NCBI RefSeq assembly: GCF_036010665.1
Contig: NZ_CP108581.1
Coordinates: 3,949,501-4,013,500, forward strand
DNA: 64,000 nt
Direction of reading: 5' to 3'
From: Microbispora sp. NBC_01189
GTDB taxonomy: Bacteria > Actinomycetota > Actinomycetes > Streptosporangiales > Streptosporangiaceae
Shown here: positions 15,153 to 29,948 of the stretch, in pieces
How the letters are laid out: every line of letters starts with the position of its first letter
Numbering within the stretch: the first letter of the stretch is position 1
The notes under the pieces: generated by a model
The model's input: the letters and a program-made list of their open reading frames with translations, nothing else
Database searches by the model: none
What the model was told of the DNA's origin: nothing
Position numbers and translations under genes: made by a program

Positions 15153-16102
15153 CGGGAGCTCCCGGAGATGAGGTAGGAGAAGACGCTTTCCAGGTCCTCG
15201 TCGGTGGGGGAGACCTGCCACAGGTGGACGTCGAGGTCGCGGGCCGTCCGGGGCAGCAGCGCGGTGAAGCGCGCGAAGTCGGTGACCTGCACCTCGATGC
15301 CCTGCTCCGTCAGCGAGACGGCGCTGGAGGACAGATCGGCGATGAGGGCGGCGGCGAGCCGCCGGTCGTCGCTCGACCTGACCCGGAACTGATGCGGCCG
15401 GTCGGCCATGCGCCGCCGGATCTCCCGGTAGTCGCCCGACGCGGCGTGCCGTCCGGCGACCAGGACCTCGATGTGGTGGGCCACCCGCTCGACCTCTTCG
15501 AGGATGTGCGAGCTGAACAGGATCGTCCGGCCCTCCTCGCCCATCCGGCGGACGAGGTCCATCAGGTGGAGCCGCTGCCGCGGATCCATGCCGTTGAACG
15601 GCTCGTCCAGCAGCAGCACCTGCGGGTCGTGGACGAGGGCCGCGGCGACCTTCACGCGCTGCCGCATGCCCTTGGAGTACGTCTCGATGCGGCGGCCGGA
15701 CGCCTCCGTCATCTCCACCAGGTCGAGGGCCCGGCGGGCCGCGTCGGCGGGAGACGGCAGGCCGTGCAGCCGGGCCGCCGACAGCACGAACTGCCGGCCG
15801 GTGAGGAAGCCGTACACGGCCTCCTTCTCGGGCACCAGGCCGATCTGCCGGTAGATGTCGTGGTTGTGCCAGATCTGGCGGCCGTCCAGGGTCGCGGTGC
15901 CGTTCGACGGCGCGAGGAACCCGGCCATCATGTGCAGCAGCGTCGACTTGCCGGCGCCGTTCGGGCCGAGCAGGCCGGTGACGCCGGGCCCGATCGTCAT
16001 CGTGACGTCGTTGACCGCCACGACGTTGCCGTACCAGCGGGAGACCTGGGCGAGTTCCAGCACGCCCTGGCGGGTGGTCACGGGGGGACTCGTGGTGGTC
16101 AC
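15149..16102 (-). CDS. ABC transporter ATP-binding protein (second of two)
   Basis: A 317-residue ATPase. Walker A is GPNGAGKST (about residues 46-54), the signature is YSKGMRQRV, and Walker B is VLLLDEPFNGMD, followed by the H-loop SSHIL. The ~90-residue C-terminal extension is common in ABC-2 exporters. The start is the GTG at 16102, which overlaps the permease stop (GTGA). The frame is open far upstream but that is the shadow of the neighbouring permease. It pairs with the permease at 14436-15152. Confidence -1.
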   Translation of the reverse strand: MTTTSPPVTTRQGVLELAQVSRWYGNVVAVNDVTMTIGPGVTGLLGPNGAGKSTLLHMMAGFLAPSNGTATLDGRQIWHNHDIYRQIGLVPEKEAVYGFLTGRQFVLSAARLHGLPSPADAARRALDLVEMTEASGRRIETYSKGMRQRVKVAAALVHDPQVLLLDEPFNGMDPRQRLHLMDLVRRMGEEGRTILFSSHILEEVERVAHHIEVLVAGRHAASGDYREIRRRMADRPHQFRVRSSDDRRLAAALIADLSSSAVSLTEQGIEVQVTDFARFTALLPRTARDLDVHLWQVSPTDEDLESVFSYLISGSSR

Positions 16103-18895: not shown

Positions 18896-19017
18896 GACTC
18901 CTCGACTGCCTCACCGAGGGGCTCATGCCCAGCGGTTCAGGTGACGCCAATAGCGTCAGTTCGTACTCAAGGGCGTACGGGCAGCCTCGGTTGCCGGCCA
19001 GGCGGACCAGCCCTGGC

Positions 19018-19937
19018 GGAACTATCCCCGCGTGCGCGGGGAGCACAGCGTGCCGACCTCGGTCCGGCCCAGGGCGATGGGACCATCCCCGCGTGCGGGA
19101 GCGCCCGGCCAACCGCATCAGCTCCTCCTCGGACAGGGGAGCAGGGGCTGCGCGGCACGCCGCTGGCCGAGGAGCTGGGACCATCCCCGCATGCGCGGGG
19201 AGCACCTCATCGTCGGCGCGATGGTGCTCGGGCCCGAGGGACCATCCCCGCGTGCGCGGGGAGAACCGTGCGTCGCTGCCAGCTCTTCGGGGCCTACCGG
19301 GACCATCCCCGCGTGTGCGGGGAGCACAAAGCCTCGCGCAGCAGCCGGTCGATCGCGTAGGGACCATCCCCGCGTGCGCGGGGAGCACCCGCGCTGGGGT
19401 CACCGCGGTCAGGGCGACTGGGGACCATCCCCGCGTGCGCGGGGAGCACAGAACGGCGTCCACTGTTACCTCCTCCCGAGCGGGACCATCCCCGCGTGCG
19501 CGGGGAGCACAGATGCAGAAGCTCGTACGCGACTTCGGCAAGGGGACCATCCCCGCGTGCGCGGGGAGCACTTCGACGCCGCGACCCCCATGGTGACCGG
19601 CGGGGGACCATCCCCGCGTGCGCGGGGAGCACATATACGTTGCCGTGCTGTTGGCCCGGCCCGCGGGACCATCCCCGCGTGCGCGGGGAGCACTTCTGTC
19701 CGATTCGGATCACGGCCCGGGTCACGGGACCATCCCCGCGTGCGCGGGGAGCACTCCTTCTTCGCGAACCGGGAGGCGCTGATGTTGGGACCATCCCCGC
19801 GTGCGCGGGGAGCACAGCCCGGCCGCAGGCGCGGACATCGACAAGGCGGGACCATCCCCGCGTGCGCGGGGAGCACGAGGCGTACGCCGTCCGCGACGAT
19901 CCTGGCGCGGGACCATCCCCGCGTGCGCGGGGAGCAC
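19018..19937 (-). CRISPR. Type I-E CRISPR array 1 (15 repeats, transcribed leftward)
   Basis: Thirteen near-identical 29-bp repeats start every 61 bp from 19177 to 19909, so the spacers are 32 nt. Two more at the left are damaged: 19018 (mismatched beginning) and 19079 (broken after GCGTGCGGGA). On the minus strand the repeat begins GTGCTCCCCGCGCACG and ends GGATGGTCCC, the type I-E form in actinobacteria, with an 8-nt handle ATGGTCCC. The leader is therefore on the right and the decayed trailer end on the left, which agrees with where the degenerate repeats are. Variant repeats are those at 19177 (GCATGC core), 19238 (ends GAGAAC) and 19299 (GCGTGTGC core). Spacer targets cannot be determined from sequence alone. 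Confidence -1.
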
Positions 19938-20040
19938 ACTTCGCCACCTGCGGAAACGCGACCCATGTGACGAAATTCCGAGCACTTTCATGGATCCGGG
20001 CATTTCGGACTCGGCTTTTGATCTTGGAAGATTGATCGCC
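19938..20040 (-). promoter_or_regulatory. Leader of CRISPR array 1
   Basis: The region right of the last intact repeat, read on the minus strand, ends GCAGGTGGCGAAGT before the first repeat and carries AAGTGCTC exactly 50 to 43 bases from the repeat. Both elements occur at the same distances before array 2, although the sequence between them has diverged. It should hold the pre-crRNA promoter and the integration signals for Cas1-Cas2. Confidence -1.
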
Positions 20041-20073
20041 CTGCCAGCCCCGGAGGGCCGCCAGGGCTGGCAG
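20041..20073. terminator. Strong hairpin between mini-CRISPR and array 1
   Basis: CTGCCAGCCC (20041-20050) and GGGCTGGCAG (20064-20073) form a perfect 10-bp stem with a 13-nt loop. It lies 48 bp beyond the degenerate repeat pair in the minus direction. It could end the short mini-CRISPR RNA before the array 1 promoter. No T tract is present, so its role is inferred. Confidence -1.
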
Positions 20074-20121
20074 CGTGAGGGCGGCCACTCGCAGCGCGGT
20101 GGGCTCGCGGCGTCGCAAGCT

Positions 20122-20200
20122 GGGGTTATCCCCGCGTGCGCGGGGAGCAGGGTTGTAACTATCGTCCGCATGGGACCATCCCCAAGCCATGGGGAGCATG
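20122..20200 (-). ncRNA. Degenerate mini-CRISPR: candidate Cascade-guided regulatory RNA (CreR/CreA-like)
   Basis: Two isolated degenerate I-E repeats flank a 21-nt segment. Read on the minus strand, the first (20200-20172) keeps the handle ATGGTCCC and a hairpin in which CCCCA pairs with TGGGG. The normal G-C pair at the stem end has become A-U, so base pairing was preserved despite change. The second (20150-20122) keeps the full CCCCGCG/CGCGGGG stem and has an altered 3' end. The 21 nt between them start ATGCGGACGATAG. Those 13 nt match 20355-20367 on the plus strand at 12 positions, with a single mismatch at position 6, and the trinucleotide before the match is AAC. Short spacer, degenerate repeats, and a partial match to a promoter next to cas genes are the marks of Cas-regulating RNAs and CreA antitoxin RNAs. 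Transcription is not proven. Confidence -1.
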
Positions 20201-20319
20201 TCATCTACCATGATGGCCTACTTGAATGAGCGGTTTGCACGGCGGCTGAACTGGAACGATGACTCTTCGTGAACTTGGCCGCCGACGAGGAGCCCTTCTC
20301 GTGCTCTTGGCGGTGGTTC

Positions 20320-20367
20320 TTCTTATGGTAGATTTTCGTTCGTAGAATGGCAACATGCGAACGATAG
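20320..20367 (+). promoter_or_regulatory. Predicted promoter with embedded mini-crRNA target site
   Basis: TAGAAT (20343-20348) is a good -10 element. TTCTTA (20320-20325), 17 bp upstream, is a weak -35. The start would fall near 20355, which is exactly where the 13-nt seed match to the mini-CRISPR begins (20355-20367), preceded by AAC as a potential PAM. The inverted repeat TCGTTCG/CGAACGA brackets the -10 region. A bound Cascade would cover the transcription start. Confidence -1.
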
Positions 20368-20394
20368 AGCTTCACCATCCCCTCAGGAGGTTCT

Positions 20395-20580
20395 ATGGCA
20401 AAGGAACCGGAGCCGCTCCTCGACTTGAAGAGCTTCGTGCTCCTCCTGTTCGCGACCTTGGTCGGCTGCGCCACGGGCGTCCTCACTCACCTCGCCGGCG
20501 GGAATCAGCCGCAGTCCGTGATCGCGGGCGGGGCTGCCGCCGGCGCGGCGCTCATCTGGGCACAGAAGTTGCTGCGCTAG
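20395..20580 (+). CDS. Small membrane protein under the mini-CRISPR target promoter
   Basis: A 61-residue protein starting MAKEPEPLLDLKSF with two hydrophobic segments (about 13-33 and 42-58) and the end WAQKLLR. An AGGAGG ribosome-binding site ends four bases before the ATG, so translation should be strong. It sits between the mini-CRISPR and cas3, on the cas strand. No terminator is seen before cas3, so it may be the first gene of the cas transcript. No known family is recognised. It could be a toxin kept silent by Cascade (CreT-like role), a membrane partner of the CRISPR system, or a passenger. Only its location and regulation argue for a link. Confidence -1.
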   Translation: MAKEPEPLLDLKSFVLLLFATLVGCATGVLTHLAGGNQPQSVIAGGAAAGAALIWAQKLLR

Positions 20581-20667
20581 CGCCGAGAAGACGGTCGCGA
20601 GTGATGGCTCATCGCGGGCCGGTCTGGCGCAAATTCGCTTAGAGCGGACAAAAGTGCGAGTCCGTCC

Positions 20668-23600
20668 ATGGGTGACAAGAACAGGTCAATCCGTAGTTCG
20701 TCCTTGAAGAGCACCTCTCCTCTGTTACGTTTCAGGTTGTCACGAATTCGGAGTGACACACAGGCCGTCGCTGCTTATTGGGATGATTCTGTGGTCGATG
20801 AAGAGCCAGTAGGTGCCGAGCTCGCCAAAGCGCTTTCCAGGGCGGCGCGAGCGGTGTGGGCCAAGCATGACCGTGACAGCGATGGCTGGTTGCCGTTGTG
20901 GCGGCATATGGCTGACAGCGGGGCCGTAGCCGGGTTGTTGTGGGATGAGTGGGTCCCGGTTCAGGTACGGCGGATACTGTCGGACGCGCTTTCCGGCGGT
21001 GAAGCGGATGCTCGTCGTCTCGTGGTGTGGTCGGCGATGACGCACGATATCGGCAAGGCAACGCCGGCTTTCGCATGTCAGGTGGAGTTGCTTGCCGACG
21101 GCATGCGGGCGGAAGGGCTGGACATGCCGCTCCAGAAGCGGTTCCCCGACCGGAAGATCGCCCCGCATGGTCTCGCCGGCCTGGTTCTCTTGCAGGAGTG
21201 GCTGGCGGAGCGGTACGGCTGGCGAAAGTCGTGCGCTCTGCAGTTCGCGATCGTCGCCGGTGGCCACCATGGGGTGCCGCCGACGGCCCTGGATATCAAG
21301 CAGGTGGTCGATCGCCCGCAGTTGCTTCGTACGCGGGAATGCGCGGTGCTGTGGCGAGAGGTTCAATGGGAGTTTCTTGACCGGTGTGCTGATCTGTGCC
21401 GACTTCGGGAAAGATTTCCGGCGTGGCAGTCGGTTAAACTGCCACAGCAAGCGCAGGTGCTTTTGACCGGCCTGGTCATCGTCGCTGATTGGATCGCCAG
21501 CAACCCCGATCTCTTCCCGTATTTCCCCGATGCTCAAAGCGTTAGTGACCAGGAACGCGTCAGTGCGGCGTGGGACGGCCTGAATCTGCCGGCACCGTGG
21601 CACGCGGCGCATCCGGCCGGCGATGTGGCGGAGCTGTTCTTCTCGCGTTTTGCCTTGCCCGCTGACGCGAAAGTTCGACCGGTACAGCGCTCCGCCGTCG
21701 AGATCGCGAGATCCATGGCCCGCCCGGGTCTCCTTGTCATTGAGGCTCCGATGGGCGAAGGCAAGACCGAAGCGGCCCTGGCTGTGGCGGAGGTCTTCGC
21801 CCACCAGTCGGGAGCCGGCGGGTGTTTCGTCGCACTGCCCACGATGGCGACGGGCAACGCGATGTTTCCCCGGCTGCTGACGTGGCTGGGCAGGGTCTTC
21901 TCAGGCCAGGAGGCACGGCACTCGGTACACCTGGCGCATTCCAAGGCGGCGCTCAACGAGGCGTACGCCGACTTGATCCGGGCCGGCCGGCGGTCAGTGC
22001 GTGGAGTCGACACCGACGGCGGCGGAGAGGTGTGGCGTCCGGGTAGCGATGATCGGGCGGCCTCGGCTGAGTTGATCGCGCACCAGTGGCTGCGGGGCCG
22101 GAAGAAGGCGATGTTGGCCTCGTTCGGTGTGGGGACGATCGATCAGCTCCTGTTCATGGGGTTGAAGAGCCGTCATCTGGCGCTGCGTCATCTGGCCCTG
22201 GCCGGCAAGGTGGTCGTGATCGACGAGGCGCACGCCTACGACTCCTATATGAACTCCTATCTGGACCGGGTGCTGTCCTGGCTCGGCGCGTACGGCGTGC
22301 CGGTGGTGGTGCTCTCGGCGACGCTCCCGGCCCGGCGACGCCGCGAGCTGGCCGAGGCGTACGCGGGGACGGCCGGGTTCGCTGAGATCGAGGCCGCCGA
22401 CGACTACCCGCTGCTCACAGCGGTTGAACGAGACCGGCCGCCGGTGATCGAAGCGGTGGAGGGTTCCGGGCGCACGACCGACGTGCACCTTGAGCCTCTC
22501 GCCGACGACCTGCCGACGCTGGGGGATCGCCTGGCGCAGGAGTTGGCCGAGGGCGGTTGCGCGCTGGTGATCCGCAGCACGGTGGACCGGGTGCTGGAAA
22601 CCGCGGCCTACCTGCGCGAACGATTCGAGCATGTGACCGTGGCCCATGCCCGCTTCCTGGACCTGGACCGTTTGGCGAAGGACGCCCTGCTGCTGGAGCT
22701 TTTCGGACCTCCGGACAAAAGCCACAACCGGCCCACCACCGCGCACATCGTCGTTGCGAGCCAAGTCGCTGAGCAGTCCTTGGACGTCGACTTCGACCTC
22801 CTCGTGTCTGATCTGTGCCCGATTGACCTTCTGTTGCAGCGGATGGGGAGACTCCACCGCCACCAGCGAGGCGAAGACCAAGCTGACCGCCCCGTACGGC
22901 TGCGGACGGCCCGATGCCTGGTGACCGGCGCGGACTGGGCGGCCGTGCCGGTCGAGCCGGTGCCCGGCTCCAAGCGCGTCTACCGCCTCCACGCCCTGCT
23001 GCGGTCGGCCGCTGTGCTGGAGCCCTTCCTCACCGGTACCGCGCCGACCGGTCACATCGTCCCACTGCCGGACGACATCAGCCCGCTTGTGCAGCGCGCC
23101 TACGGCGCCGGGCAGATCGGCCCGCAGGCGTGGCAGGAGGCGATGGCCCGCGCCCGCGTCGCCCACGAGCTGCACCGGGCGAAGCAGCGCGAGAAGGCCG
23201 ACGCTTTCCAGATCAGTCCGGTGGGCAGGCCCGGCCGTGCCCTTGTCGGCTGGGTGGAGGCCGGGGTCGGGGACGCCGACGACACCCGTAAGGGCCGCGC
23301 CCAGGTCCGGGATACCAAAGAGTCGCTGGAGGTCCTGGTCGTCCAGCGTCGCCGCGACGGAACCCAGACCACGGTGCCGTGGCTGTCGCAAGGACGAGGC
23401 GGCGTGGAGTTGCCCACGGATTCGGTGCCTGAGCCCAAGGTCGCCCGCATCGTGGCCGCGTGCGCCCTGCGACTCCCGCACCACTTCTCGGTTCCCGAGA
23501 CGATGGACCGGGCGATCGCGCAGCTGGAGGCCGAATGCGTCCCGGCCTGGCAGTCGAAGGAGAGCCACTGGTTGGCCGGAGAGCTGATCCTCACGCTCGA

Positions 23601-23682
23601 CGAGAACTGTCGGACCCACCTGGCAGGCTACGCCCTGCATTACTCCCACGAGGACGGTCTGAAGGTGACTGATGCGCGCTGA
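20668..23682 (+). CDS. cas3: CRISPR-associated nuclease/helicase Cas3 (type I-E)
   Basis: Cas3 is recruited to the R-loop made by Cascade, nicks the displaced strand and degrades DNA while translocating. The N-terminal HD nuclease domain shows WRHMADS (about residue 80) and the metal motif THDIGKA (about 125-131), followed by GGHHGVP. The SF2 helicase part has Walker A APMGEGKTEAA, the DEAH box IDEAHAYDS, SATLP, and motif VI QRMGRLHRH. The 1004-residue length assumes the ATG at 20668. Its first ~41 residues are Ser/Arg-rich without family similarity and lack a good ribosome-binding site, so the GTG at 20791 is a serious alternative. The stop overlaps cse1 by 11 bp. Confidence -1.
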   Translation: MGDKNRSIRSSSLKSTSPLLRFRLSRIRSDTQAVAAYWDDSVVDEEPVGAELAKALSRAARAVWAKHDRDSDGWLPLWRHMADSGAVAGLLWDEWVPVQVRRILSDALSGGEADARRLVVWSAMTHDIGKATPAFACQVELLADGMRAEGLDMPLQKRFPDRKIAPHGLAGLVLLQEWLAERYGWRKSCALQFAIVAGGHHGVPPTALDIKQVVDRPQLLRTRECAVLWREVQWEFLDRCADLCRLRERFPAWQSVKLPQQAQVLLTGLVIVADWIASNPDLFPYFPDAQSVSDQERVSAAWDGLNLPAPWHAAHPAGDVAELFFSRFALPADAKVRPVQRSAVEIARSMARPGLLVIEAPMGEGKTEAALAVAEVFAHQSGAGGCFVALPTMATGNAMFPRLLTWLGRVFSGQEARHSVHLAHSKAALNEAYADLIRAGRRSVRGVDTDGGGEVWRPGSDDRAASAELIAHQWLRGRKKAMLASFGVGTIDQLLFMGLKSRHLALRHLALAGKVVVIDEAHAYDSYMNSYLDRVLSWLGAYGVPVVVLSATLPARRRRELAEAYAGTAGFAEIEAADDYPLLTAVERDRPPVIEAVEGSGRTTDVHLEPLADDLPTLGDRLAQELAEGGCALVIRSTVDRVLETAAYLRERFEHVTVAHARFLDLDRLAKDALLLELFGPPDKSHNRPTTAHIVVASQVAEQSLDVDFDLLVSDLCPIDLLLQRMGRLHRHQRGEDQADRPVRLRTARCLVTGADWAAVPVEPVPGSKRVYRLHALLRSAAVLEPFLTGTAPTGHIVPLPDDISPLVQRAYGAGQIGPQAWQEAMARARVAHELHRAKQREKADAFQISPVGRPGRALVGWVEAGVGDADDTRKGRAQVRDTKESLEVLVVQRRRDGTQTTVPWLSQGRGGVELPTDSVPEPKVARIVAACALRLPHHFSVPETMDRAIAQLEAECVPAWQSKESHWLAGELILTLDENCRTHLAGYALHYSHEDGLKVTDAR
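20738..20758. promoter_or_regulatory. Inverted repeat near the alternative cas3 start
   Basis: TGTCAC (20738-20743) and GTGACA (20753-20758) are inverted with a 9-bp gap. If cas3 starts at GTG 20791, this is an upstream operator-like site. If it starts at 20668, it is inside the gene. No regulator can be named. Confidence -1.
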
Positions 23683-25339
23683 TCCGTCGTTCGACCTGAC
23701 TCGGTGTCGCTGGCTCCCGGTCCGGATGCGGGACGGCACCGAGGACGAGCTGTCGCTGCGAGAGGTCTTCGAACAGGCCGCGGAGGTGCAGCGGCTGGTG
23801 GGTGATATTCCCACCCAGGAGTTCGCGCTGCTGCGCCTGCTGCTCGCGATCACGCACGACGCGATCCAGGGCCCGGTCGACCTGGACCATTGGCAGGAGC
23901 TGTGGGACGGCGGCCTCCCCATCAAGGACATCACCGACTATCTGGACGAGCATCGGCACCGGTTCGATCTGCTGAACCCCACCGAGCCCTTCCTTCAGTG
24001 CGCTCGCCTGGAGATCGCAGGCGAGGCAGGCTCGCCTGACCGCATCGTCGCCGATGTCCCCAACGGCGCGCCGTTCTTCACCATGCGTGCCCGCGGCGCG
24101 TCCCGGCTCGGCTTCGCCGAGGCCGCACGCTGGCTCTTGCACGCGCATGCCTTCGACACCTCGGGCATCAAGACCGGAGCCAAGGGCGACCCGAGGGTGA
24201 AGAACGGCAAGGTCTACCCCCTCGGTGTCGGCTGGGCCGGCAACCTCGGTGGCGTTCTCGTGGAAGGCGGCACCCTCAGCGAGACGCTGCTGCTCAACCT
24301 GGTCGCCTTCGACACCGACAACATGCGCAACGACCCCGATCGCGACCTCCCGGCCTGGCGTCACCCGTCCCCGGGTCCCGGGCAGATGGATCCGCTGGAG
24401 CTGAGCAGCCGCCCGGCGGGTGTGCGGGACCTGTACACGTGGCAGTCCCGGCGGGTGCGGCTGACCTACGACGCGCACGGCGTGACGGGGGCGATTCTCG
24501 GCTACGGCGATCCCCTCGCCCCGCACAACAAGCATCAGTTGGAGCCGATGACCGGCTGGCGGCGCAGCCCGGCCCAGGAGAAGAAGCTGGGCCTGGCCCA
24601 GGTGTACTGGCCGCGCGAGCATGATCCCAACCGCAGCGCCTGGCGCGGGCTCGGCGCGCTGATCGCCGGCAACGCCCCCGGCGGGCAGCAGCGCGGGGAG
24701 GCCGCCGCCATCGTGCGGCCCCGGATCCTGGACTGGGCGGCCCGTCTCAGCGTCGAAGGCGACCTGCCCGCCTTCCTGATCCGGGCACGCCTGTTCGGCG
24801 CCGCGTACGGCACGCAGCAGTCGGTCATCGACGAGATCATTGACGATTCCGTCACCATGCCGCTCGTACTGCTGCACCGAGAAGATCACGGGTTGGGGCA
24901 GGCGGCCGTCGACGCGGTCGCCGACGCCGAGGCCGCGGTGAGCGCGCTGGGTTACTTCGCCGCCGACCTCGCCTTCGCCGCCGGGGCCGAGACCGAACCA
25001 CCCAAGGAGGCGGCACGGCATCTCGCGTTCGCCACTCTCGATGGACCGTTCCGCGCATGGCTCGCCGATCTCCGTCCGCAGGACGACCCCAGCCGGGTGC
25101 GCGCGGTCTGGCAGCAGCAAGCCCACGACATGGTCAGGCGACTGGGCTATGAGGTGCTGCGCGAGGCCGGTGACGCCGCATGGGAAGGGCGCGTGATCGA
25201 AACCAAGCAGGGTCAGGCTCTGTGGTTGAACGCACCGGGTGCCGAGCGGAGCTTCCACGCCAGGTTACGCAAAGCGCTGCCGCTGGCCGCGACCGATTCA
25301 CCCGGCAAGGCTCTCGACGAACTGGAGGCACGGACATGA
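23672..25339 (+). CDS. casA: Cascade large subunit Cas8e (Cse1/CasA)
   Basis: Cse1 recognises the PAM and helps open the target DNA in the type I-E Cascade. The 555-residue protein fits the family in length and in conserved segments such as LLRLLLAITHDAI, FDLLNPTEPFLQ, NLVAFDTDNM and DPLAPHNKHQLEPMTGWR. It overlaps cas3 at its start and the cse2 ATG at its end (ATGA), so the operon is translationally coupled. Confidence -1.
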   Translation: MRADPSFDLTRCRWLPVRMRDGTEDELSLREVFEQAAEVQRLVGDIPTQEFALLRLLLAITHDAIQGPVDLDHWQELWDGGLPIKDITDYLDEHRHRFDLLNPTEPFLQCARLEIAGEAGSPDRIVADVPNGAPFFTMRARGASRLGFAEAARWLLHAHAFDTSGIKTGAKGDPRVKNGKVYPLGVGWAGNLGGVLVEGGTLSETLLLNLVAFDTDNMRNDPDRDLPAWRHPSPGPGQMDPLELSSRPAGVRDLYTWQSRRVRLTYDAHGVTGAILGYGDPLAPHNKHQLEPMTGWRRSPAQEKKLGLAQVYWPREHDPNRSAWRGLGALIAGNAPGGQQRGEAAAIVRPRILDWAARLSVEGDLPAFLIRARLFGAAYGTQQSVIDEIIDDSVTMPLVLLHREDHGLGQAAVDAVADAEAAVSALGYFAADLAFAAGAETEPPKEAARHLAFATLDGPFRAWLADLRPQDDPSRVRAVWQQQAHDMVRRLGYEVLREAGDAAWEGRVIETKQGQALWLNAPGAERSFHARLRKALPLAATDSPGKALDELEART

Positions 25340-26019
25340 CCGCACCCACCCCGACCCGCCGTCCTGTCGGCCAGGTGGTCGGCGAGGTCGCGGGCGCCTA
25401 CATCGCCGAACTGCAGGCGGGATACCTCGCCGATCGGAGCGCGGCAGTCGCCACCTTGGCAAGGCTGCGACGTGGCGCCGGCAAACTCCCCCAGGAGGCC
25501 CCGGACCTGTGGGGCATCGCCGGAATCGAGCGGCTGTACGGCGAGCAAGGGCTCAGCGAGCGTGACTCCGAGCAGGTGAAGGACAGGGCCGAGTCCGCCC
25601 TGTTCCTGGCGGTGACCCTGTACGCGCTGCACCAGCAGTCGCGCAAGACGGACAGGATGCACCGCCCCCGGGCAGACCTGGGCGCCGCCGTCCGCCGGCT
25701 GATGCCCAAGGGCGGGATCGACGAGCCGATCCGGCGCCGCTTCGTCCGTACGGGCACCGCCACCTCTCTCGACGCGCTCGCCTACCGGCTGCGGGAGATC
25801 GTCTCCCTGCTGCGCGGAGCCTCCATCCCGCTGGACTACGGCCTGCTCGCCCGGCAGCTCTACCAGGCCCAGTGGCCCGAGGGGCTGCGCCAGGTCCGCC
25901 ACAGCTGGGGACGCGGCTTTCACGCCTACCTCCCTCCCGCCTCTTCAGACGGCTCCTCCGACAGCACCCCGGACAGCTCCTCCGTGAGCGACGACGACCC
26001 CATCGACAAGGACATGTGA
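25336..26019 (+). CDS. casB: Cascade small subunit Cse2 (CasB)
   Basis: Cse2 forms a dimer along the Cascade belly and stabilises the displaced strand. The 227-residue protein has the family helices with RLRRGAGKLPQEAPDLWGI and LDYGLLARQLYQAQWPE. It ends in a Ser/Asp-rich tail of about 25 residues not found in short homologues. The ATG at 25336 overlaps the cse1 stop. The frame is open further upstream, but that part only shadows cse1. Its stop overlaps the cas7 ATG (TGATG). Confidence -1.
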   Translation: MTAPTPTRRPVGQVVGEVAGAYIAELQAGYLADRSAAVATLARLRRGAGKLPQEAPDLWGIAGIERLYGEQGLSERDSEQVKDRAESALFLAVTLYALHQQSRKTDRMHRPRADLGAAVRRLMPKGGIDEPIRRRFVRTGTATSLDALAYRLREIVSLLRGASIPLDYGLLARQLYQAQWPEGLRQVRHSWGRGFHAYLPPASSDGSSDSTPDSSSVSDDDPIDKDM

Positions 26020-27215
26020 TGACGCGCACCATCGTGGAAGTACACGCCCTGCAGACCGTCCCTCCCAGCTGCCTCAACCGGGACGACACCGGCACCCCCA
26101 AGAGCGCCGTGTACGGCGGAGTGCGCAGGGCCCGGGTGTCGAGCCAGGCCTGGAAGCGAGCCACCCGGCACGCCTTCCACGGGCGGCTGGACCCCGCCGA
26201 GCTGGGGGTCCGCACCCGGCGAGTGGCCGAGGTGCTCGCCGAGCACATCGCCGAACTGGACGACTCGATCGAGCAGGCCCAGGCGTGGAAGCTGGCCGCC
26301 GAGACGATCCAGACGGCGACCGGATCCAAGGTCGAGGTGCCCAAGCGCAAGGCGACCGCGGCCAAGGACAACCCGGAGCCGCCCGCACCGGAGTCGAAGT
26401 ACCTGATGTTCCTCAGCGCCCACCAACTGCGGGGCCTGGCCGAGCTCGCGGTCAAGGCGCACGGCTCCGGCCCGGACTTCTTCAAGGACAAGGCCAACAA
26501 GGACCGCGCCCGCCAGATCGCCAACACCCGGCACTCGGTCGACATCGCCCTGTTCGGCCGGATGGTGGCCGACGGTTCCGACATCAACGTCGACGCCGCC
26601 GCACAGGTCGCCCACGCCCTCAGCGTGCACCCGGTGGACATCGAGTCCGACTACTACACCGCGGTCGACGACTACAAGGAGCGCGAGGACGACGACCGGG
26701 GCGCGGGCATGATCGGAACGGTCGAGTTCAATTCCGCCACCCTCTACCGCTACGCCGCGCTCGACGTGGACCTGTTGCGCGCCAACCTCGGCAAAGGGCT
26801 GCGCGACGACGAGCCGGTGACCGAGCCGGTGCGCCGCGCCACCGAGGCGTTCGTCGAGTGCTTCCTGACCTCGCTGCCCACCGGAAAGATCAACACCTTT
26901 GGCAACCACACCATGCCCGACGCGGTGGTCGTGAAGCTGCGCACCTCACGGCCCATCAACGTCGTCGCGGCCTTCGAGGAGCCCTGCCGGGCCGAGCCGG
27001 AGATCGGCGGCCACATGCGGCAGGCGTGTGAGCGGCTCGCCGCCTACATCCCCGAGATCGAAGGCGCCTACGGCATCGCACAGGACACTCCCACCTGGGT
27101 GCTGCGAGTCGGCGGAAACACTGAGGCACTGGCCGGTCTCGGCACCGTGCTGTCCCTGCCGGACCTGGTCGCGGAGGTCGGCGCGGAGGTCACCCGCAGG
27201 CAGGCCGGTGCATGA
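26019..27215 (+). CDS. casC: Cascade backbone subunit Cas7e (Cse4/CasC)
   Basis: Cas7e polymerises along the crRNA spacer, six copies in a standard complex. The product has 398 residues. VEVHALQTVPPSCLNRDDTG, AVYGGVRRARVSSQAWKR, RHSVDIALFGRM and GKINTFGNHTMPDAVV are characteristic. A lysine-rich linker (VEVPKRKATAAKDN) interrupts the fold around residue 105. Fewer copies would fit on the 21-nt spacer of the mini-CRISPR than on the 32-nt array spacers. Confidence -1.
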   Translation: MTRTIVEVHALQTVPPSCLNRDDTGTPKSAVYGGVRRARVSSQAWKRATRHAFHGRLDPAELGVRTRRVAEVLAEHIAELDDSIEQAQAWKLAAETIQTATGSKVEVPKRKATAAKDNPEPPAPESKYLMFLSAHQLRGLAELAVKAHGSGPDFFKDKANKDRARQIANTRHSVDIALFGRMVADGSDINVDAAAQVAHALSVHPVDIESDYYTAVDDYKEREDDDRGAGMIGTVEFNSATLYRYAALDVDLLRANLGKGLRDDEPVTEPVRRATEAFVECFLTSLPTGKINTFGNHTMPDAVVVKLRTSRPINVVAAFEEPCRAEPEIGGHMRQACERLAAYIPEIEGAYGIAQDTPTWVLRVGGNTEALAGLGTVLSLPDLVAEVGAEVTRRQAGA

Positions 27216-27928
27216 GTGTTCTGCTGATACAGCTCGCCGGACCCTTGCAGGCGTGGGGCTCCTCCTCCCGCTTCGCCCGCCGATCCACCGAGGCCGCCCC
27301 CACCAAGAGCGGGGTCGTCGGGCTGCTCGCCGCCGCTCAGGGCCGTCTGCGGGGCGACGACCTCGCCGACCTGGCCGCGCTGAAGTTCGGCGTACGGATC
27401 GACCAGCCCGGCATGCGCCTGCGCGACTTCCACACCGCCCACCGCTTCGACACCGACGCGGCCATGCCGGTGTCGGAGCGGTACTACCTTGCCGACGCGG
27501 TCTTCGTGGCAGGCGTCGAAGGTGAGCAGGGCCTGGTGGAGGAGCTGCACCGGGCGCTGCGCGACCCGGTCTTCCTTCCCTACCTCGGACGCCGCTCCTG
27601 TCCGCCGTCCCGGCCCGTTGATCTGGGCGTTCGGCACGACCTCACCCTTGAGGATGCGCTCGCGCGGCAGGAGTGGCGGGCATCCCGCTGGTACCAGCGG
27701 CGACACCGAACCCAACAGCACGTCGAACTCGAAGCGCTGATCGAAGCCACACCGGCGGACGGCGCGGTCGACACCCTGCGTGACCAGCCGCTGAGCTTCG
27801 ACCCGCTGCACCGCCGCTACGCCCTGCGCGGCGTCCGGCGGATCACCGTCCCTGGGGTGCCCAACCCCACCGCACGCGTTCCGCTCCCACTGAGCCACGA
27901 CCCCACCGCCGTCCTGCGAGGCGCCTGA
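27212..27928 (+). CDS. casD: Cascade subunit Cas5e (CasD)
   Basis: Cas5e caps the 5' end of the crRNA and holds the 8-nt handle. The 238-residue protein begins MSVLLIQLAGPLQAWGSSSR, the standard N-terminus, and has TKSGVVGLLAAAQGR and DFHTAHRFDT motifs. It overlaps cas7 by 4 bp and cas6e by one base. Confidence -1.
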   Translation: MSVLLIQLAGPLQAWGSSSRFARRSTEAAPTKSGVVGLLAAAQGRLRGDDLADLAALKFGVRIDQPGMRLRDFHTAHRFDTDAAMPVSERYYLADAVFVAGVEGEQGLVEELHRALRDPVFLPYLGRRSCPPSRPVDLGVRHDLTLEDALARQEWRASRWYQRRHRTQQHVELEALIEATPADGAVDTLRDQPLSFDPLHRRYALRGVRRITVPGVPNPTARVPLPLSHDPTAVLRGA

Positions 27929-28617
27929 TGTACCTGACCCGCTTCCGCATCAACACCGCCCGCGTTGGCGCCCGGCGGCTGCTGTCCTCACCCCAACGGA
28001 TGCACGCGGCGGTGATGTCGTCCTTCGCGGAGATCCCCGCGCCCGCCGGACAGGGCCCCCGCGTTCTGTGGCGCATCGATCAGGACAGCCCCACCGCGAC
28101 ACACCTGCACATCGTCAGCCCCGCCAAGCCCGACCTCACCCACCTCGTGGAACAGGTCGGCTGGCCGCAGACCGGCCGCTGGGAGACCTTCGACTACGGG
28201 CCGTTCCTCGACCGGCTCGCGGCCGGCCAGCGGTGGGCGTTCCGGCTTACCGCCAACCCCGTCCACACCGCCCGCCGTAGGGACGACGAACCCACCAAGA
28301 TCACCGCGCACGTCGGAGTACGGCACCAGATGGGCTGGCTCCTGCAGCGCCAGGACAACGCCGGATTCCGTGTCATTGAGAAGGCATCGGAGCATCAGCT
28401 GGTCCCCGAACGGGACCGCCACGAACTCGTCGTCCGCAACCGGCGGGAGCTCGCTTTCACCAAGGCCGGTCAAGGCAAGCCGGTCACTCTGGTCTCCGTC
28501 ACCTTTGACGGACGCCTGGAGGTGACCGACCCCGCCGTACTGCGGCGTACCCTCACTCACGGCCTGGGCAAGGCCAAAGGCTACGGCTGTGGCCTGATGA
28601 CTCTGGTCAAGGCGTGA
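27928..28617 (+). CDS. casE: crRNA-processing endoribonuclease Cas6e (Cse3/CasE)
   Basis: Cas6e cuts the pre-crRNA at the base of the repeat hairpin and stays bound to the 3' stem. The 229-residue RAMP protein begins MYLTRFRINTARVGARRLLS. It has His26 in PQRMHAAVM, the position of the catalytic His in characterised Cas6e enzymes. The C-terminal glycine-rich loop GLGKAKGYGCGLMTL is intact. It would also be the enzyme that processes the mini-CRISPR RNA. Confidence -1.
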   Translation: MYLTRFRINTARVGARRLLSSPQRMHAAVMSSFAEIPAPAGQGPRVLWRIDQDSPTATHLHIVSPAKPDLTHLVEQVGWPQTGRWETFDYGPFLDRLAAGQRWAFRLTANPVHTARRRDDEPTKITAHVGVRHQMGWLLQRQDNAGFRVIEKASEHQLVPERDRHELVVRNRRELAFTKAGQGKPVTLVSVTFDGRLEVTDPAVLRRTLTHGLGKAKGYGCGLMTLVKA

Positions 28618-28620
28618 CTC

Positions 28621-29583
28621 ATGGCGACAGTAGGCCGGCGAGGAGCCTCCTCACCTCGCGAACTCACCCGAATCAGTGACCGGATCTCCTTCATCTACCT
28701 CGAACGTTGCACCCTGCACCGCGAGGACAACGCCATCACCGCCGAAGACGCCAACGGCATCACCCACATCCCCTCCGCCACCATCGGAACCCTGCTGCTG
28801 GGCCCCGGTACCCGGGTCACCCATCAGGCGATGAGCGTCCTCGGGGACAGTGGAGCGGGAGTCGTATGGGTGGGGGAGCACGGCGTGCGCTTCTATTCCG
28901 GCGGCCGATCCCTCAACCGGTCCTCCACCTTCGTCGAGGCGCAGGCCACCAAGTGGGCCAACCGGCGCACGCGCCTGGAAGTCGCCCGCGAGATGTACCG
29001 CATGCGCTTCCCGAACGAGAACCCCGACGGCCTCACCCGGCACGAACTTCTCGGCAGGGAAGGCCGCCGGGTCAAAGATTCCTACCGGGCCCAGGCCGCC
29101 CGCGTCGGGATCCCCTGGAACGGGCGCGTCTACACCCCCGGCTCATTCGACTCCGGCGACCCCGTCAACCAGGCGGTCACCGCGGCCGCCCAATGCATGT
29201 ACGGCATCGCCCAGACCACCGTGCACGCCCTGGGCTGCGCCCCCGGCCTCGGATTCATCCACTCCGGCCACGAACTGGCCTTCGTACTGGACATCGCCGA
29301 CCTGTACAAGACCGAGATCGCCCTGCCGATCGCCTTCGACATCGCCGCAGAAAGCCCTGAAGACGTCGGCTCTTTCACCCGCCGCGCCATCCGCGATCAC
29401 GTGAACAAGATCGGTCTCCTGCGGCGGTGTGTGAAGGACATCAAGCATCTCCTCCTGACCGACGGAGGAGGCGACGACCCCACCGGAAACGACATCGACC
29501 GAGTCACACTCCAAAGTGACCACGGCGTAGAACTCGAGGCCGGCCGTAACTACGACGGCGAATACTACGAGGTGGACTGGTGA
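28621..29583 (+). CDS. cas1: CRISPR integrase Cas1 (type I-E)
   Basis: Cas1 integrates new spacers at the leader end with Cas2. The 320-residue protein has the N-terminal beta domain (ISFIYLERCTLHREDNAI), then the helical catalytic domain with AAQCMYGIAQTTVHALGCAP and IHSGHELAFVLDIADLYK. The last supplies the conserved His and Asp metal ligands. It follows cas6e by 3 bp and overlaps cas2. Confidence -1.
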   Translation: MATVGRRGASSPRELTRISDRISFIYLERCTLHREDNAITAEDANGITHIPSATIGTLLLGPGTRVTHQAMSVLGDSGAGVVWVGEHGVRFYSGGRSLNRSSTFVEAQATKWANRRTRLEVAREMYRMRFPNENPDGLTRHELLGREGRRVKDSYRAQAARVGIPWNGRVYTPGSFDSGDPVNQAVTAAAQCMYGIAQTTVHALGCAPGLGFIHSGHELAFVLDIADLYKTEIALPIAFDIAAESPEDVGSFTRRAIRDHVNKIGLLRRCVKDIKHLLLTDGGGDDPTGNDIDRVTLQSDHGVELEAGRNYDGEYYEVDW

Positions 29584-29948
29584 CGGTCATCGTCCTCACC
29601 CGCTGCCCTGCCGGCCTACGAGGCTTCCTCACCCGGTGGCTGATGGAAATCTCCCCCGGCGTCTTCATCGGCGGCCCCTCCGCACGGATTCGGGAAGCGC
29701 TCTGGAACGAGGTCCAGCACTACGCCGACACCGGCCGCGCCCTTCTGGCCTACACCACGGACAACGAGCAGGGCTTCACCTTCGAGACCTACGACCATAA
29801 GTGGCATCCGATTGATCACGAAGGCCTCATCCTGCTCCGTCGTCCCAAGGACCAGCCCACCGTGAGCGCCACGCCCGCTCCCTCCGGCTGGAGCAAGGCC
29901 GCACAACGCCGCCGCTACGGCCGCGGAGGCCAGACCAAGCCAGGGTAG
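29580..29948 (+). CDS. cas2: CRISPR adaptation protein Cas2 (type I-E)
   Basis: Cas2e is the dimeric centre of the Cas1-Cas2 integrase. The 122-residue protein has the usual MTVIVLTRCPAGLRGFLTRW start, the EISPGVFIG strand and a C-terminal extension after LILLRRPKDQ that ends in a basic GRGGQTKPG tail. The start is a GTG that overlaps the cas1 stop (GTGA). Array 2 begins 119 bp downstream. Confidence -1.
   Translation: MTVIVLTRCPAGLRGFLTRWLMEISPGVFIGGPSARIREALWNEVQHYADTGRALLAYTTDNEQGFTFETYDHKWHPIDHEGLILLRRPKDQPTVSATPAPSGWSKAAQRRRYGRGGQTKPG

Follow-up and report, generated by a model that had tools for sequence, protein, structure and literature searches.

A mini-CRISPR guide predicted to direct Cascade to a small membrane protein gene: a probable CreTA-type module of actinobacterial type I-E systems

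RESULTS

Features of the locus

The window analyzed here is a stretch of 64,000 nucleotides from the genome of Microbispora sp. NBC_01189, a single contig of 7.37 Mb. It contains a complete type I-E cas operon flanked by two ordinary CRISPR arrays. Between one of these arrays and cas3 lie a mini-CRISPR with two degenerate repeats, psi-R1 and psi-R2, and a small open reading frame (ORF). The features are listed below with the basis of each.

19018 to 19936, minus strand: ordinary CRISPR array, repeats oriented like those of the guide gene
20025 to 20100, minus strand: G+C-rich hairpin region 3' of the guide gene, possible transcript end (folding)
20122 to 20150, minus strand: psi-R2, second degenerate repeat, CTGCTCCCCGCGCACGCGGGGATAACCCC (read directly; hairpin)
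20151 to 20171, minus strand: guide segment of 21 nt, ATGCGGACGATAGTTACAACC (read directly)
20172 to 20200, minus strand: psi-R1, first degenerate I-E repeat, CATGCTCCCCATGGCTTGGGGATGGTCCC, with the handle ATGGTCCC (read directly; hairpin)
20325 to 20353, minus strand: promoter-like site, possible guide promoter, TTGCCA-17 nt-TACCAT (consensus match only)
20343 to 20348, plus strand: TAGAAT, possible -10 element of the membrane gene (sequence only)
20352 to 20354, plus strand: AAC, presumed PAM (sequence; the other matching loci likewise have AAC before their sites)
20355 to 20367, plus strand: predicted Cascade target site, ATGCGAACGATAG (match to the guide)
20395 to 20580, plus strand: 61-aa small membrane protein, the regulated gene in the proposed creT role (ORF, homologs, predicted helices)
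20668 to 29948, plus strand: cas3-cse1-cse2-cas7-cas5-cas6-cas1-cas2, complete type I-E operon (gene detection)

The preliminary description of this DNA had reported two degenerate I-E repeats around 21 nt, and direct reading confirmed their coordinates; the A-U pair described for the psi-R1 stem was likewise present, as the closing pair of the folded hairpin. Identity to the I-E repeat consensus used was 17/29 for psi-R1 and 23/29 for psi-R2. The automatic pair scan missed the pair because psi-R1 scored just under its threshold, and the pair was entered from direct reading. The psi-R1 and psi-R2 hairpins had folding energies of -10.2 and -14.3 kcal/mol and shuffle z values of -0.36 and -3.03, respectively, so that psi-R2 alone was unusual. 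As in CreTA and CrePA modules, the crRNA-like gene has degenerate repeats and is placed outside the main array; it departs from a canonical array in these repeats, in its segment of 21 nt, and in matching its own locus. No Rfam match was found in 19000 to 20700, and no terminator was called for the hairpin region at 20025 to 20100, where a T-run is absent. At the end of the ordinary array that is distant from cas (19018 to 19204), the repeats are damaged and their spacing is irregular (159 nt).

Guide match upstream of the membrane gene

Over its first 13 nt, the guide is identical to 20355 to 20367 at 12 positions, with position 6 as the sole mismatch, and AAC stands directly 5' of the site, both as had been described. 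The sequence ATGCGNACGATAG occurs in exactly two copies in the 7.37-Mb genome, one in the mini-CRISPR and one in the AAC-flanked site before the 61-aa ORF. When the ~150 nt preceding the ORF were base-shuffled 20,000 times, an AAC-flanked match this good never arose.

A promoter scan of 19940 to 20700 found one promoter-like site (0.1 expected) and listed none before the membrane ORF. The site found, on the minus strand from 20353 to 20325, faces the guide gene and touches the Cascade site. It is the sole promoter-like match that could serve the guide gene, and through this contact the guide may be self-limiting. The target had also been placed at the transcription start predicted from TAGAAT. 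The motif is present at 20343 to 20348, but the scan did not list it, and the start point of the 61-aa ORF is therefore a guess.

The small membrane protein

Two helices were predicted for the 61-aa protein, at residues 11 to 34 and 39 to 60 (mean pLDDT 72.7, 4 sequences). It matched no family in Pfam, NCBIfam, or PADLOC, and the absence of Pfam matches extends to the KilA-N domain that marks CrePA; PHROGs gave one match, at E 0.3. For these reasons, we use the word toxin for this protein by analogy. The dN/dS ratio was 0.12 to 0.36 in six pairs by NG86 and 0.19 to 0.50 in the four pairs computable by YN00. These low ratios show selection on the protein and not on an RNA alone, and such purifying selection argues, though not decisively, against a toxin that acts as RNA in the sense of type VIII CreTA.

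Recurrence among relatives

Homologs of the small membrane protein (smp) were detected in 54 of 345 genomes of the order (E 0.01); in the genus of the window, the protein was found in one of 15 genomes, the window's own. A phylum-wide profile search returned 6 of 396 genomes including the window's, and no cassette was seen near the other five. No relatives were found by tblastn in plasmid and phage collections at E 0.01. In the literature searched, no earlier description of the membrane-protein cassette was found; the original CreTA, CreR, and CrePA papers lay outside this scope, and a mention there is possible.

We inspected the loci of the best 30 matches in the order. I-E repeats were present in the ~3-kb stretch at 15 of these 30 and absent (within about 1.5 kb) at the other 15, which suggests that the smp family has members with another life. 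The smp matches without I-E repeats nearby are L011, L017 to L030, and L032 to L035; in L011, the neighboring gene encodes a LuxR/sigma region 4-like domain. Both repeats were present in 14 of the 15 repeat-bearing loci, the first repeat being lost in L013. Loci used below include L002 from Streptosporangium violaceochromogenes, L004 from Nonomuraea harbinensis, and L005 from Actinomadura roseirufa. Judged by Cse1, a cognate Cascade was found in every repeat-bearing smp genome but G256 (14 of 15).

Covariation of guides and sites

In 12 of the 14 two-repeat loci (L001 to L009, L012, L014, and L015), the guide seed matched an AAC-flanked site upstream of the locus's own ORF. These 12 loci hold 13 sites, two of them in L002, and AAC precedes all 13. 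By repeat scores, psi-R1 was more diverged than psi-R2 in nine of the 12. The guides are lineage-specific, except that L012 and L015 share an identical one. Scored over 10 seed positions (1 to 5 and 7 to 11), own pairs reached 10 in L001, L003, L004, L005, L006, L012, and L015 and 9 in L002, L007, L008, L009, and L014, so that all 12 matching loci stand at 9 to 10; L010 and L016, in which the match is absent, scored 7.

Guides and sites were then swapped between loci. Among the 182 swapped pairs, 177 scored 5 to 8, one scored 9, and four scored 10. Two of these four come from L012 and L015; the other two arise because L004 and L006 contain a stretch similar to the L005 guide, which AAC does not precede. 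Permuting the guides among the 14 loci 100,000 times gave sums of at most 123, against 129 observed. Covariation of seed and target in relatives with the same cassette, which the preliminary description had named as a check, was therefore found in 12 of 14 loci, and permuted guides fail.

Gene layouts and the common target

In the window and in L002 (layout i), the guide gene is on the opposite strand and the ORF is followed by cas3 with no guide gene between them. In L003 to L010, L012, and L014 to L016 (layout ii), ORF and guide gene share a strand, the guide gene being the downstream one. The guide gene stands directly before cas3 in L007, L008, L012, L015, and L016 and before cse1 in L004; cas lies kilobases from the cassette in L003, L006, L009, and L014 and on another contig in L005, and no cas genes were found in L010.

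Cse1 was found in 143 of the 345 genomes of the order, and we surveyed 60 stretches ahead of Cse1 matches, hand-picked from the upper part of the list. Four of these (L072, L081, L091, and L119) come from genomes of the smp set, and the other 56 were counted. A mini-CRISPR with an AAC-flanked site was present in 9 of the 56 (layout iii), eight found by a scan without a flank requirement and L099 by a looser scan requiring AAC. In L075, L089, L093, L096, and L099, a small ORF encoding a hydrophobic stretch lies 3' of the site and faces away from cas3; L068 has a similar open frame, also facing away from cas3, without an in-frame start. Profile E values, with 10,000 sequences assumed, make the L075 (1.6e-7) and L089 (0.0011) products relatives of the window's protein; L096 is marginal (0.017), and L068, L093, and L099 are not significant alone, with L093 reaching 0.0054 under a widened profile. 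L087 has an 87-aa membrane ORF, and nothing clear was seen in L107.

Other observations concern individual loci. In L065 (3733 to 4400, plus strand), a mini-CRISPR ahead of cas3 has its AAC site before a 197-aa gene that belongs to no recognized family, perhaps encoding a different Cascade-repressed protein; assignment of this gene to DUF3800 was unsupported, the first 160 aa having no Pfam match. Two AAC-flanked sites for one guide stand before the same gene in L040 (15126/15150), L075 (3760/3828), and L089 (5733/5774), and L087 may have a second, weaker site for its guide. On the minus strand of L089 and L096, ~200 to 270 nt after the site, a leader separates the site from the small membrane ORF; the leader contains, by eye, a G+C-rich inverted repeat, possibly a second layer of control.

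Outside layout i, the guide gene intervenes between ORF and cas, the ORF diverges from cas3, or cas lies kilobases off or on another contig. The common target would therefore be the membrane gene and not cas3, which makes CreTA rather than CreR the closest relative; direct control of cas3 is unlikely in most layouts. We also rejected the survey loci as CreR units in the cas3 leader, their sites being on the strand of the divergent small genes. Of the two roles first suggested for the guide, control of the small membrane gene is thus retained, whereas control of the whole cas operon is plausible only in the layout of the window and L002. There, the ORF ends 87 nt before cas3, so repression may partly reach the window's cas operon.

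Mismatch pattern along the guide

Mismatches were counted by position in 24 guide/site pairs, 13 from the 12 smp loci and 11 from the nine survey loci. The unflanked survey scan gave 38 matches, 26 of them after AAC. The 12 non-AAC matches were left out, as were two in L091 (the L045 locus), an array-edge match in L045, and an L053 match ~1.7 kb away; the pair of the window and that of L099 were then included. In the same scan, isolated repeat pairs with no match or only non-AAC matches were the first pairs of L053 and L099, two pairs of L083, and those of L071, L079, L080, L110, and L114. A control count of flanking trinucleotides was swamped by array repeats and is uninformative.

Over the 24 pairs, positions 1 to 5 had 0, 0, 2, 0, and 0 mismatches, and positions 7 to 11 had 0, 2, 4, 1, and 2. 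Position 6 was mismatched in 17 pairs, position 12 in 18, and position 13 in 5, with numbers rising beyond. Survey sites had been selected on positions 1 to 5 and 7 to 11 only, and among these 11 sites position 12 was mismatched in 8 and position 13 in 4. The smp-locus sites, except that of L003, had been ranked on the first 14 positions, which is a bias against mismatches at 6 and 12; even so ranked, the 13 sites had 9 mismatches at position 6 and 10 at position 12, against 1 at position 13. A permutation of the nine survey loci reached the observed sum once in 100,000, a value that is not independent because these loci were chosen for having a match.

In the available text on the CreA of Haloarcula hubeiense (PMC8501985), mutation shows that positions 1 to 5 and 7 to 11 are needed and positions 6 and 12 are not. 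The pattern found here is the same seed that was proven experimentally for CreA antitoxins. With guides and sites covarying and mismatches falling where Cascade leaves bases unpaired, the earlier proposal of a Cascade-guided RNA that targets the DNA ahead of the membrane ORF is supported. As to the flank, excerpted reports give AAC as a type I-E PAM in Bifidobacterium (PMC8482600) and AAG as that of the I-E system of Streptomyces avermitilis (PMC4762764).

Loci with lost or damaged parts

In N. harbinensis (genome G151, L004 and L042), smp, the guide, and a site with a 10/10 seed match stand directly before cse1-cse2-cas7-cas5-cas6, and cas3 is absent from the 20-kb stretch at this Cascade operon. 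The sole Cas3 match in G151 (E 1e-10, 37% identical) belongs to a second I-E-like system ~22 kb away, so Cas3 may act in trans. At 15321 to 15711 of L042, a truncated cas1 is followed by a few CRISPR repeats.

Genome G256 (L010), which is 96% complete, gave no matches to Cse1, Cas7, or Cas3; its second repeat is broken and its target site is gone. Such loss of site and guide in a Cascade-free genome is as expected for a harmful product. Two loci have kept the full cas operon beside a damaged ORF: L013 (G237) has an in-frame stop and lacks the first repeat, and L016 (G173) has no in-frame ATG, GTG, or TTG before the conserved part and no site, which suggests that loss of the module is tolerated there. 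L008 has a good guide/site match yet no usual in-frame start. Just 5' of the conserved part of the small ORF in L008 and L068, seven consecutive C separate an ATG from the conserved protein, and the two are in different frames, reflecting a frameshift, a phase-variable run, or a sequencing error.

DISCUSSION

We interpret the locus as a CreTA-type module of an actinobacterial type I-E system, in which Cascade represses a membrane protein that is probably a toxin, and we give this reading a probability of about 0.68. From the sequence comparisons, guidance of Cascade to the promoter region considered here is highly probable; given such guidance, it is likely, by analogy, that the membrane protein is a toxin in an addiction or abortive-infection module. 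In the proposed mechanism, processing at the degenerate repeats would turn a minus-strand RNA from 20200 to 20122 into a guide that resembles a crRNA, takes the creA role, and is loaded into Cascade. Guide nucleotides 1 to 5 and 7 to 11 would find the AAC-flanked site upstream of the membrane gene. As in CreTA, Cascade at the site would block transcription, the match presumably being too short for destruction by Cas3. Loss or mutation of Cascade, its inhibition by an anti-CRISPR, or its depletion by crRNAs would allow the 61-aa two-helix protein to be made. It would probably arrest or kill the cell, so that Cascade would become addictive or the infected cell would abort.

We compared this module with known systems through the available portions of the reports cited. 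With CreTA of Haloarcula (I-B) and Acinetobacter (I-F) it shares degenerate repeats around a guide (PMC8501985, PMC9458426, PMC10097628), a first repeat more diverged than the second, a seed of positions 1 to 5 and 7 to 11 with a PAM, and a place near cas. Those CreT toxins, however, are small RNAs, whereas here we find a conserved protein under purifying selection, a type I-E system, and AAC. In Citrobacter rodentium, a 96-bp ORF beside cas3 of a I-E system is toxic and Cascade-repressed; the toxin is translated, and repression needs Cascade and not cas3 (PMC12055562). The I-E type, the gene beside cas3, and the opposite-strand guide upstream are alike in the two cases. The Citrobacter toxin, in contrast, lies between cas3 and casA, has the PAM ATG, and has no homologs reported in the portion available (PMC12055562), whereas the 61-aa family recurs in the order with AAC as presumed PAM. 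CrePA (PMC12737573) likewise has a protein product under CreA-guided effector repression, but CreP is described there as a KilA-N-domain protein acting on FtsZ and ours is a small membrane protein. The guide of CreR (I-B, I-E, and V-A) is likewise crRNA-like, derives from a mini-CRISPR, and is complementary to the promoter to a limited extent (PMC12737573, PMC13131331); CreR acts on cas promoters and is uncoupled from a toxin gene, whereas here the common target is the membrane gene.

This last comparison raises the question of whether the guide serves autorepression of the cas operon in the manner of CreR, with the small ORF a mere leader gene. The window and L002, in which the ORF stands directly before cas3 with no guide gene between, would suit such a role, and CreRs have been reported for type I-E (PMC13131331, available text). 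In other smp loci, however, the guide gene lies between ORF and cas or the cassette is remote or on another contig (L003, L005, L006, L009, and L014), although transcriptional read-through past the guide is possible. In six survey loci, the site is followed by a small open frame that faces away from cas3, and the membrane protein is conserved and under purifying selection. Gene order thus makes CreR unlikely as the main function for most layouts, and we consider it an unlikely account overall. The match could also be an accident in a decayed array remnant. The repeats are degenerate, psi-R1 alone folds no better than shuffles, and two of 14 relatives lack a match, but such an accident would not explain why 12 of 14 loci have AAC-flanked matches of their own that swapped guides fail to reproduce, nor why mismatches concentrate at positions 6 and 12. 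We regard a 12-of-13 match by accident as very improbable and rejected it on the swapped-guide and mismatch tests.

A Cascade-regulated helper is a further candidate: a useful, non-toxic protein that would be made under Cascade shortage and serve, for example, in back-up defence or against stress. Toxicity is assigned by analogy, homologs exist away from CRISPR repeats, and in L013 and L016 the ORF or its start is damaged beside full cas operons, all of which a helper would accommodate. Against it stand the close analogy to CreTA, CrePA, and the I-E toxin of C. rodentium (PMC12055562, available text) and the loss of site and guide in Cascade-free G256; we hold it unlikely.

Returning to the CreTA-type reading, we lean, by a modest degree, toward a broader picture in which type I-E systems of the order to which Streptosporangium, Nonomuraea, and Actinomadura belong would possess a family of small membrane toxins under Cascade repression, arranged in three or more layouts and with guides re-tuned together with their sites. 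Cascade would then be both antitoxin and anti-CRISPR sensor, and the N. harbinensis Cascade operon would have been retained for this reason although its cas3 and the greater part of cas1 were lost. Experiments have so far supported the idea of Cascade as an antitoxin in few cases, and the toxins of these are unrelated. In the present loci, a single protein family lies beside I-E systems of several genera, and guide and site change together each time. The seed rule known from mutation work on archaeal I-B CreA emerges here independently from I-E evolution. Addiction, anti-CRISPR sensing, and the keeping of Cascade without its own cas3 become directly testable in actinobacteria.
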